A stretch of 64,000 nt of DNA from Oceanicola sp. 502str15 (GTDB lineage Bacteria > Pseudomonadota > Alphaproteobacteria > Rhodobacterales > Rhodobacteraceae): contig NZ_WYDQ01000001.1 of assembly GCF_024105635.1 (NCBI RefSeq), positions 2,976,501 to 3,040,500 on the forward strand, written 5' to 3'. Both the position numbers and the translations under genes were made by a program. Positions 47,987 to 60,224 of the stretch are shown here, in pieces (the stretch's first letter is position 1; the number at the start of each line of letters is the position of its first letter). The notes under the pieces were generated by a model. It did no database searches. It saw nothing but the letters and a program-made list of their open reading frames with translations, and was not told the origin of the DNA.

Positions 47987-48166
47987 TTTCTGCCCCTTTT
48001 CTCCCCGAAGTTGAGCAAAACTTACCATAACGTCATGCAAGCTGTATTTTTCACGTTAATTCCCGCGAGTCCAAGGGGTTTCACTGGTGTTCCCGGCGGA
48101 AACCCGCCAGTTTCCCAAGCGTAACTAGTGAGGAATTTCAACGCCATATTCTGTGAGAGAAGTCAC

Positions 48167-48514
48167 TTGCCTGACCCTTTCGACCACGTCGGCGACCAGC
48201 CCAGAAGGCGCGCCTGGTGGAAGCTCCACCGCATGCCCGCAAGCTGGAAGGCCATTCTGGCCCTCGCCATGCTCGCCGCCGCCTGCCTCTACCTGATGGC
48301 CCCCGGCAGCCCCGATGTCGCCAAGCACGAGAGCCAGGCGATGATCGCGCTGCTGGCCTCCCTCGCGGTCAGCGGCCTGCTGGCCCTGCTGGCCGGCATG
48401 ATCCACCACGGGCGCAAGGTCATCGCCGGCCTGCTGCTGCTGGTCGTGGCGCTGCTGAGCGATGCCCTGCTCTTTGCCGCCTACGCCGCCACCTTCGGCC
48501 TCTTCGGCTTCTGA
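48167..48514 (+). CDS. Small predicted membrane protein, unknown
   Basis: A 115-residue protein if started at TTG 48167; ATG 48233 and GTG 48128 are alternatives. TTG is preferred because codon third positions become GC-rich from there and AGAGAAG precedes it. Three predicted helices: AILALAMLAAACLYLMAP, AMIALLASLAVSGLLALLAGMI and VIAGLLLLVVALLSDALLFA, with a basic cytoplasmic start (RRRAWWKLHR). No family recognised. Confidence 0.6.
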   Translation: MPDPFDHVGDQPRRRAWWKLHRMPASWKAILALAMLAAACLYLMAPGSPDVAKHESQAMIALLASLAVSGLLALLAGMIHHGRKVIAGLLLLVVALLSDALLFAAYAATFGLFGF

Positions 48515-48537
48515 CCCGACACTGCCGCTGAAATGCC

Positions 48538-48571
48538 AAAGGGGCCCCGCATCGCTGCGAGGCCCCCTTGC
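48538..48571 (-). terminator. Terminator after rpoC
   Basis: Minus strand AAGGGGGCCTCGCA / TGCGGGGCCCCTT with a short loop (one mismatch), followed by TGGCATTTC. It lies ~22 bases after the rpoC stop. Confidence 0.7.
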
Positions 48572-48592
48572 GTGTCTGTCGATGGCCGGCGC

Positions 48593-52831
<4,239 letters not shown>

Positions 52832-52906
52832 ATCATATTCCTTTGGCGCCCTGGGTGCCCTGCGCAGGGGCTGCATATCTGGAAAGGGTATTCGGTGTGG
52901 CTCGGG

Positions 52907-53770
52907 TCAATGGCCTATCCTCTTCTTCAGAGAAGAAAGTCTCCGTTTTTCCTTCCAGAGGCCGATTTCTCTTCGGATGTCCCACAATATTCGTGAGCTG
53001 GAGCTCAGTTCTTTCTGCACTTGTGTCAGCAGTGGCGAAGGTCCGAACGCGTGGGGTTTCTTGATGGCTGCCGAGATCGCTCCCCTTTTCAGAACACCGC
53101 TCTGAAAGGTCGGCCACATCGGCTTAGTGTGATAGTGATCTTCATTCAGACCAAGAGCCGGAAACTCGAACCGCCACGGGTCCGTCTCGCCTGCGGTCAA
53201 CTTGTACGAGAGGACATCGCGAAGATGTCCGATCTCCCAATAGCAAACCACAAGCGAGTTGAACGCACGGTAATCGGCGTTGATGGTTCTGAGAGAAAGC
53301 GCCTCGGCGTCCTCCCCCAGGTCATCGGCCGGCTCCGAAAAGTCGCAGCCCTCAATCGCGTCATCCGTATTCCAGAGGACAAAGAAGTACTTCTTGTTCT
53401 GGGTGCGAATGAGGTCCCTCACCTTGGTCAGGTAGTCATCGTCTACGGGAGCCAAAGGCGCCAGATCCTCGAGCATCAGAAAAACATGCCCGCATTCCGG
53501 CATGTGCTGTTCAAGCTCGTCCAGCGCATGAGAGAGCAATTCCACAAAATTGCTGCCGGGTTTGCGAAATACCCTTTCGCCTTCAATCGCCCCATCGGTG
53601 ACGACATAGGCAGGGGGGTGCTCAGGCCAGAACTCATCGAGGTTCTGAAGTGATGCATTCAGGTAGCGCTCGTACTTTTGGCAGGTCATCACAAACAACG
53701 CCTCTTCCGCCGCACCGGAGTGTCCGGCCGACTTGCTGGCGATGTCTGCTGTCTGATGAACTGTGGTCAT
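52907..53770 (-). CDS. Unknown, glycosyltransferase-like gene between rpoB and rpoC
   Basis: A 287-residue protein (start ATG 53770) with no signal peptide or membrane helix. Segments such as ALFVMTCQKYERYLNASLQN, PAYVVTDGAIEGER, HVFLMLEDLAPLAPVDDDYL and KYFFVLWNTDDAIEGCDF have the strand-loop-acid look of a GT-A glycosyltransferase, with EDL as a possible metal motif. This is inference; I recognise no family. Its G+C is clearly lower (about 45-52% in the lines I counted, against ~62% in rpoC). It lies in the rpoB-to-rpoC direction, 105 bases after rpoB and 75 bases before rpoC, so it must be read through to make beta'. Confidence 0.8.
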   Translation of the reverse strand: MTTVHQTADIASKSAGHSGAAEEALFVMTCQKYERYLNASLQNLDEFWPEHPPAYVVTDGAIEGERVFRKPGSNFVELLSHALDELEQHMPECGHVFLMLEDLAPLAPVDDDYLTKVRDLIRTQNKKYFFVLWNTDDAIEGCDFSEPADDLGEDAEALSLRTINADYRAFNSLVVCYWEIGHLRDVLSYKLTAGETDPWRFEFPALGLNEDHYHTKPMWPTFQSGVLKRGAISAAIKKPHAFGPSPLLTQVQKELSSSSRILWDIRREIGLWKEKRRLSSLKKRIGH

Positions 53771-53875
53771 TTCACTACCTGCTTCGATACCTATCAACAA
53801 GTTTGCCGTCCGCGTGTCACAACTCGTCCGGTTCTTGTGCCGACCCCATGGCAAGCACGGGGTCGGCTGAATGAT

Positions 53876-58012
<4,137 letters not shown>

Positions 58013-58195
58013 AGCGGTGTGTCACCTTTCGTCTGTCGCCGCACGCATTCCCGTCGGGGCACCGGGAGGGCGCGGCTCACGAATGAAGGAGCGTCCGGGA
58101 TCAATACCAGCCCACCGTCCCACCGGCAGGCACCCGATCCAGTCGAACGCGCCTTGGAAAGAACCTCTTGCAGAGGCGCTTGCCGAGACGCATTC

Positions 58196-58227
58196 GGCTG
58201 GACCCGGATTTTTGCCCGGATCCAGCC
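58196..58227 (-). other. Hairpin between rplL and rpoB
   Basis: GGCTGGATCCGG / CCGGGTCCAGCC on the minus strand (11 of 12 paired). It lies 39 bases after the rplL stop. No U-tract. The position matches the attenuator and processing region between rplL and rpoB known in other bacteria. Confidence 0.6.
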
Positions 58228-58265
58228 AATTCTCTATCGGGCCACCCGTGACGGGCGGCAGCCGA

Positions 58266-58646
<381 letters not shown>

Positions 58647-58719
58647 TTTTCGCTTTCCGTCTGTCTAGATGTGTTCCAACGCGAGGTAATCAACCCCTAC
58701 GCGGCTCTCATTCGTTGCC

Positions 58720-59232
58720 TTACGCGGCCTTCTCTTCGATAGTCGAAAGGATGGACGCGATATTCGAGGCAGGTGCGCCAATGGCGCCGGCGATGTTCGA
58801 GGCGGGGGCACCGATGCAGCCCACGATGGAAGCAATGAGCTCCTCGCGAGACGGCATGGCGGCCACGGCTTTGACACCAGCGACGTCCAGAGCGCTCTCA
58901 CCCATGGCACCACCGAGGATCTCGAGCTTCGAGTTGTCCTTGGAAAACGCCTGAACAACCTTGGCCGCAGCCACAGGATCTTCAGAGTAGGCGAGAACGG
59001 TCATACCCGTCAGAAGATCGGCAATGCTGGCGCAAGGCTTTCCTTCCAGGGCGATCTTGGCGAGCCTGTTCTTGGCGACACGTACGGACCCGCCAACTTC
59101 GCGCATTTGCGCGCGCAGGTCCTGCATCTCGGCAACCGTGAGACCCTCGTAGTGGGAGACCACAACGACGCCAGAGCTTTCGAAAATCTGGCCGAGTTCC
59201 TCGACCACTTTCTCTTTCTGGGCTCTATCCAC
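58720..59232 (-). CDS. rplJ: 50S ribosomal protein L10
   Basis: L10 (170 aa), the stalk base that holds L7/L12 dimers: [34 protein letters not shown], and a C-terminal Ala/Gly-rich helix. The start is GTG 59232 with GGAG seven bases upstream. In this window rplK and rplA do not precede it; a GST gene does, 336 bases away. Confidence 0.97.
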
Positions 59233-59567
59233 AGTTTCACTCCAATTTGGGCAGGATCATCCCCGCCCGGCTCTTTTTTGCTGGCCGAAGCCAACACTCA
59301 GGTCCGTACTACGGGGCTGAAGCCAAGTTCGCCCGAGAGAAGCCTCGCGGGAAAACATGTTCTGACCCGTCTCAGGCAGGAAATTAAGGGGTTCGGACGA
59401 ACGCCACCCACCGTCTTGGACGAAACGCAAAACAGCGCACGACGAATCGCACGCTGGGTTGCAGGGGGCGGTTTAGTGGCATGGGCCGCCAAGGGCAAGT
59501 CCCCGGAGCCACAAACCGGCGCGGGGCGATCAACTTTGTTCGATCCCGCCGCGAGCGGCGCGGGCGC
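59233..59567 (-). promoter_or_regulatory. Leader and promoter region of rplJL-rpoBC
   Basis: 335 bases without a gene. On the minus strand a hairpin GTTGGC-TTCG-GCCAGC (plus 59280-59295, UUCG tetraloop) lies ~50 bases before rplJ, and a related CTTGGCTTCAGCC lies ~40 bases further upstream. This is a plausible L10-binding leader, but I cannot place the kink-turn with confidence. A GC stem follows the GST stop (GCCGCTCGCGGC). No near-consensus promoter is obvious; TTGATC near 59548 is the best -35 candidate. Confidence 0.5.
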
Positions 59568-60224
59568 TCAATCCGGGCTGCCATTGTCCTTCAGCGGAAA
59601 CATCCAGCGCATCGGGCGGGCCTCGTCGACCACGCGGGCAATCGAGGGATGCGCCATCAGCCGGGCGCGATAGGCCAGCAGCGCGGTGTGGCGGGCGGCA
59701 ATCGGGTGGCCCCAGTGGGCATAGTGCAGCGCCGGTCCGGCGGCGACATCCGCAAGGGTGAAACGCCCGCAGGCCGCCCAGTCGCGCTCCGCCATCCAGA
59801 GATCGAGCCAGGCATAGGCCTTGTCGAGCACGGCCTGCGCCTCCTCGTCGGCCAGCGGGTCGTGCGCCGCGCCCCGGATCCGGTTCAGCACCATGCGGGT
59901 GAGCGGCGCCATCACGTAATCGTCGAAGACGCCATCCATCTGCCGGGCCTCGATCGCCGCGCGCGGATCTGCGGGCACCAGCGGTGCGGCCGCGCCATGG
60001 TGCAGGTCGAGATACTCGATGATCGGCGCACTCTCGATCACCACCCGCGCCCCGTCCACCAGCACCGGAAACTGCCCGGTCGGCGCGGCCTGCGCCACAA
60101 AGGCGGCATTATCCGGATGCTCCGGGTCTACCATCAGGAAGTCGAAGGGCACCTCGCGCTCGTAAAGCGCAATCAGCGCCTTCCAGCAGAAGGAGGCAAA
60201 GGGGTGGCCATAGAGCTTCAGCAT
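59568..60224 (-). CDS. Glutathione S-transferase family protein
   Basis: A 218-residue GST: N-terminal thioredoxin-like domain (MLKLYGHPFASFCWKALIAL, with PTGQFPVLVDGARVVIESAPIIEYLD, the cis-Pro and glutathione-binding ESxxI), and an all-helical C-terminal domain with GRFTLADVAAGPALHY (capping box). A catalytic Ser/Cys near FASFCW is likely. Start ATG 60224 by alignment. Confidence 0.9.
   Translation of the reverse strand: MLKLYGHPFASFCWKALIALYEREVPFDFLMVDPEHPDNAAFVAQAAPTGQFPVLVDGARVVIESAPIIEYLDLHHGAAAPLVPADPRAAIEARQMDGVFDDYVMAPLTRMVLNRIRGAAHDPLADEEAQAVLDKAYAWLDLWMAERDWAACGRFTLADVAAGPALHYAHWGHPIAARHTALLAYRARLMAHPSIARVVDEARPMRWMFPLKDNGSPD

Follow-up and report, generated by a model that had tools for sequence, protein, structure and literature searches.

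In the genome of Oceanicola sp. 502str15 (Rhodobacteraceae), rpoB and rpoC are separated by an additional gene. We analyzed a window of 64,000 nucleotides that contains this locus (contig NZ_WYDQ01000001.1), and all coordinates are positions within this window. The upstream neighbor is rpoB (53876..58012, minus strand), recognized from its open reading frame (ORF) and translation and by tblastn with relatives. The downstream neighbor is rpoC (48593..52831, minus strand), the start of which was set by comparison with relatives. The gap between them is 1044 bases long (52832-53875) and holds one complete ORF of 287 codons (52907..53770), confirming the same-strand gene reported in a preliminary description of this DNA. 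Its product (P0001) is a probable glycosyltransferase with a GT-A fold. Throughout, G-, L- and P-numbers denote genomes, fetched loci and proteins, respectively, and genome counts for "the family" refer to Rhodobacteraceae.

The inserted gene differs in composition from its neighbors, as had also been noted before. Its G+C content is 54.7%, compared with 63.2% for both rpoB and rpoC, and its G+C at third codon positions is 65.6%, compared with 87.1% (rpoB) and 88.0% (rpoC). No second copy was found in the same genome. We take the ORF to be real because the nine members of its protein family, which are 32-44% identical to the window protein, share 30 invariant residues. A misassembly at 52832-53875, which the preliminary description had raised, is excluded because three other genera have relatives of the gene in the corresponding gap and the contig carrying the locus is 4.24 Mb long.

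The gene starts 105 bp past the rpoB stop, without overlapping it. The intervening spacer contains a hairpin with 12-nt arms and a 5-nt loop (53839..53867, minus strand) that has no trailing T-run and is thus not a classical terminator. The 75-bp spacer before rpoC (52832..52906, minus strand) carries a Shine-Dalgarno-like AAAGGA motif, read by eye. Across 52400-54300 we detected no Rfam match and, in a scan for sigma-70-like sites only, none on either strand (0.3 expected by chance). Two terminator-like sites were found in the same interval (1.5 expected). The same-strand arrangement of the three genes suggests that the inserted gene may be cotranscribed with rpoB, or that transcription reads through it to rpoC. 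The insert comprises the one gene; recombinases elsewhere were not sought. A transposon, an integron cassette or a tRNA-targeted element was considered and appears unlikely, as there is no repeat pair bracketing 52832-53875, no tRNA in 48000-60000, and no Rfam match.

A rare protein family

The P0001 family is small. A single-sequence search of ~5.8 billion proteins recovered four relatives, and a profile search, which scored only the 8000 candidates sharing most words, gave ten proteins in all, including the window protein and one that looks chimeric. The protein of the type found in G237 (P0006) represents 91 contigs in the protein collection. The chimeric-looking protein (P0010, 368 amino acids, from a metagenome) joins the first ~206 residues of a G237-type protein to the start of RpoC at its methionine, and reflects either a real deletion or an assembly chimera. 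None of the nine members matched NCBIfam at E<=1, and Pfam returned only three matches, each for one member and each to an unrelated family (best E 0.013). Thus, no known sequence family was found for P0001 in the libraries searched. A phage or defence gene was also considered, and rejected because the three members tried (P0001, P0003, and P0006) have no match in PHROGs or PADLOC.

Within Rhodobacteraceae the gene is rare. It occurs in 2/61 genomes of a kinship sample and in 5/394 genomes of the family, counting its own genome in both cases, and in none of six congeners (one of these genomes is 87% complete). According to the preliminary description, the same gene at this place in many Rhodobacterales would have marked it as old and lineage-specific. 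With five carriers this is not the pattern, yet four of the five (Oceanicola sp. 502str15, G026, G237, and G407, representing four genera) carry it in the rpoB-rpoC gap. In the gap carriers, rpoB and rpoC are 83-89% identical to those of the window, while the gap copies of P0001 are only 32-44% identical. In the metagenome-assembled genome (MAG) G237, rpoB was matched in three pieces with parts absent between them (L020, 3082-6767), reflecting either assembly gaps or a damaged gene.

The fifth carrier, G319, has a short rpoB-rpoC gap (70 bp) and encodes the gene elsewhere, adjoining genes for a GDP-mannose 4,6-dehydratase and an acyltransferase. This neighborhood reads as a surface-polysaccharide cluster, an assignment that beyond these two genes is our reading of the ORFs rather than one named by a library.

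Predicted fold and function

The structure model of P0001 (predicted local distance difference test 80.7, graded good) has a GT-A-like (Rossmann-like) fold, bearing out the GT-A-like character proposed from sequence motifs. Glycosyltransferases occupy the top rows of both structure comparisons, and no credible relative of solved structure was found by sequence. An acidic L-E-D-L motif at residues 100-103, in which E101 and D102 are invariant, follows a strand at 95-100. The acidic motif of GT-A enzymes likewise comes after a strand. The motif in P0001, a candidate counterpart, is not a plain DxD.

The best reading is that P0001 represents a new sequence family of GT-A glycosyltransferases, and membership in this enzyme class is likely. 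The product would use a nucleotide sugar and most likely act on a surface polysaccharide; both its activity and a surface glycan as substrate are inferred. A protein with a GT-A-like Rossmann fold could instead be a nucleotidyltransferase, or could bind a sugar nucleotide without transferring it. We consider this unlikely, given the glycosyltransferases that top both structure comparisons, the placement of E101-D102, which recalls the GT-A arrangement, and the off-site relative amid polysaccharide genes.

The rpoB-rpoC gap accepts single genes recurrently

To place the insert in context, we fetched 140 rpoB-rpoC junctions from family genomes, taken among the matches listed to an rpoC-start pattern. 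This pattern matched 234/388 genomes, so diverged rpoC starts are missing from the sample. G026, G407, the genus of the window, G210, G175, G179, G345, G096, and G134 were omitted. One further junction (L055) was dropped to leave 139; it belongs to an additional copy of rpoBC in the MAG G181. That MAG has junctions on two contigs, one of 49 bp (L054) and one with a 298-bp insert (L055), and the contig of the latter is probably a contaminant.

Gap lengths fall into two separate ranges: 43-120 bp in 125/139 junctions and 205-877 bp in the other 14, with none at 121-199 bp. The 1044-bp gap of the window is therefore far outside the ordinary range. Among five congeneric junctions, three are short (51, 75, and 75 bp) and two (G002 and G005, with gaps of 286 and 310 bp) hold other ORFs, so that the comparison with sister genomes called for in the preliminary description found the P0001 gene in none of them.

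With the four P0001 carriers included, 20 occupied junctions are available. The principal ORF, as assigned by us, lies on the rpo strand in all 20, and in 13 its start overlaps the rpoB stop by 4 bases; the window gene is not one of these. Pfam identifies two sulfotransferases and one hexapeptide transferase among the cargo. The remaining cargo consists of members of the P0001 family and of small proteins, some coiled-coil-like and others exported-looking (without use of a signal-peptide program). Like the P0001 family, several other cassette families recur in the gaps of different genera. For three small cassette families, each searched in 248 genomes, strong matches occur solely in the gap (in two, one, and one genomes), a result to be read in light of the few carriers and of the first detection of these families in the gap itself. 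Five weaker matches (E 1e-4 to 6e-4) fall outside the gap, in long frames, and resemble fortuitous coiled-coil similarity. Thus, the gap as a real and reused single-gene slot in the family is well supported.

Six gaps (L022, L025, L052, L080, L129, and, for its first ORF, L100) contain small, mostly unrelated ORFs that start in the rpoB stop, have a hydrophobic or lipobox-like beginning and carry a cysteine near the C-terminus. In all of these except L100 the ORF reaches right to the rpoC start. They may form one fast-evolving exported group.

The uniform orientation of the principal ORFs and their frequent overlap with the rpoB stop would fit a functional position, with RNA polymerase synthesis (the RpoB:RpoC ratio) adjusted by the product or by its translation, which would explain why the gap is used. 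The preliminary description had likewise suggested that product level may be tied to RNA polymerase synthesis. This explanation appears very improbable. The cargo is varied and has no relation to RNA polymerase, 125/139 genomes have no insert, and the window gene, starting well past the rpoB stop, lacks the overlap. Moreover, co-direction is expected for any gene that must not block rpoC.

Inserts elsewhere in the operon and beyond the family

The neighboring rplL-rpoB gap served as a control. We searched for rplJ in 80 genomes, and in 77 of them it shares contig and strand with rpoC. The rplJ-rpoC span minus the rpoB-rpoC gap is 249-3150 bp above the median in 14/77, and in all 14 (L166-L179) the excess DNA lies between rplL and rpoB. 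In the same 77 genomes, rpoB-rpoC inserts of at least 200 bp occur in seven. The control, invaded at least as often, gives no support to the idea that the rpoB-rpoC gap is special among the gaps of the operon. Cargo between rplL and rpoB includes two group-1 glycosyltransferases, one peptidyl-prolyl isomerase domain, and one opposite-strand dehydrogenase. Some of the other inserts have their longest ORF on the opposite strand, whereas others lack a convincing ORF. The insert of L174 encodes what appears by eye to be a shortened relative.

Outside the family, 122 genomes of the same class have rpoB and rpoC together on a single contig and strand, and in 4/122 the gap is at least 200 bp (G527, with the genes on different contigs, was dropped). 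The difference from the 14/139 within the family is modest (Fisher p 0.048), and the two samples were drawn differently. One outside genome of ~0.8 Mb (G516) has a 182-amino-acid ORF in a rpoB-rpoC gap of ~600 bp (L162, 669-1217).

Origins of the gap cassettes

A FastTree tree was built from 146 rpoB stretches, with the last 300 bases left out. On this tree the presence of an insert requires 16 changes, and P0001 requires four changes for its four gap carriers, which are all separate; such counts do not reveal whether genes were gained or lost. The protein tree joins the G407 gap copy to the off-site G319 copy (100/100) and keeps it away from the three remaining gap copies, a grouping that may be unsafe because long branches meet there. 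The inserts of the gap have more than one origin. Because four carriers that are separate on the rpoB tree share this place, the P0001 gene is not an isolated case, and not an ancient marker of one lineage either, but one user of a reused slot. The earlier suggestion of a recent acquisition tolerated by the operon is partly supported, at the level of the genus, where the gene is absent from 6/6 congeners and its composition is atypical; the recurrence of the family in the gap of four genera speaks against it as a singular event.

On balance, and with moderate confidence, we favor the interpretation that the gene encodes a GT-A surface-polysaccharide glycosyltransferase, that the lineage gained it during the evolution of the genus, and that it lies between rpoB and rpoC because this gap recurrently takes single genes in Rhodobacteraceae. 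Such genes share the strand of the rpo genes and would presumably be expressed from the transcript of rpoB. Cassettes would enter by recombination through the conserved rpoB and rpoC flanks, and would sometimes stack in tandem, in which case a duplicate of the rpoC 5' end would be left between them. The gap of G026 holds three tandem cassettes, with a copy of ~45-50 bp of the rpoC 5' end after each of the first two, and that of L115 has one degenerate copy. No others were found in the remaining junctions of 149 scanned (<=8 mismatches in 27 bases). These copies are the residue expected if an incoming cassette and its attached rpoC start were joined ahead of an older cassette.

A tentative extension of this interpretation, which we regard as possible, is that the gap hosts a pool of genes confined to this site. 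Unable to move by themselves, they would travel solely via rpoB and rpoC, which are among the most conserved sequences in the genome, as homology arms, for example in the small DNA packets of gene transfer agents. It would cover replacement across genera, stacking, rpoC-start scars, and a cargo largely of surface chemistry and exported-looking proteins. Gene transfer agents are common in this bacterial order and are a possible vehicle. The size given for their packets in general is ~5-15 kb (PMC9632790).

Several points weigh against the favored interpretation. The route by which genes enter the gap is hypothetical, and genes also enter the cluster elsewhere, the rpoB-rpoC gap not being its most frequent site. 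Furthermore, in 16 pairs that share a cassette, flank similarity does not exceed what the rest of rpoB predicts (mean z 0.16 on either side). Raised flank identity was examined as a trace of recent exchange, and gapped alignment gave no signal. The rpoC starts of the window and G026 are unusually similar (96%, z 2.6), which alone proves nothing.

This lack of a trace of recent exchange in the flanks is what would be seen if the cassettes were ancient residents, that is, ancestral gap genes lost nearly everywhere and surviving as scattered, fast-evolving relics inherited vertically without transfer. The low identity of the gap copies next to that of rpoB and rpoC also fits old, fast-evolving genes, and the tree counts are blind to the direction of change. 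Nevertheless, we find this history rather improbable. Only five carriers in 394 genomes would demand very many losses, and the rpoB tree keeps all four gap carriers apart. The grouping of the G407 gap copy with the off-site copy, with its long branches, and the absence of a compositionally atypical gene from every congener are likewise difficult to reconcile with it.

Significance and comparison with known systems

The rpoB-rpoC pair is regarded as one of the most rigid in bacteria. About one in ten sampled family genomes has extra DNA at this junction, often a gene overlapping the rpoB stop, so even this pair takes part in single-gene traffic. The gap is thus a defined place in which to study the movement between genera of genes without their own mobility, and the analysis adds a probable glycosyltransferase family named by no library. 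If the cassettes do form a site-restricted pool, an essential operon would double as an exchange slot for surface traits. Our literature search found no report of recurrent insertions between rpoB and rpoC. In Lactobacillaceae, the rpoBC operon has acquired nrdHEF between rplL and rsmC (PMC8046335), which is similar in placing foreign genes inside this operon. The case differs in being one event, upstream of rpoB and of several genes, rather than a reused single-gene slot between rpoB and rpoC (PMC8046335).

At the level of structure, the same fold class as P0001 is found in the sixth gene product of the Rhodobacter blasticus F1-ATPase operon (2qgi), which we take to be majastridin. It belongs to another operon, ranks 44th in one of the structure comparisons, below other glycosyltransferases, and is absent from the matches of the P0001 profile to PDB sequences (E<=10). 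The eukaryotic GT-A enzymes B4GALNT1, POMGnT1, and N-acetylglucosaminyltransferase I are 8-12% identical to P0001, differ in the acidic motif, and share no sequence family with it.

Integration hot spots and integron cassette arrays combine one site with many cargo genes and occasional tandem arrays. The rpoB-rpoC gap resembles them in its single site, varied cargo, and occasional tandem arrangement. Unlike both, it lies inside an essential operon, and the window insert has no nearby tRNA or bracketing repeats. A further difference is that its tandem cassettes are separated by sequence copied from the rpoC 5' end.
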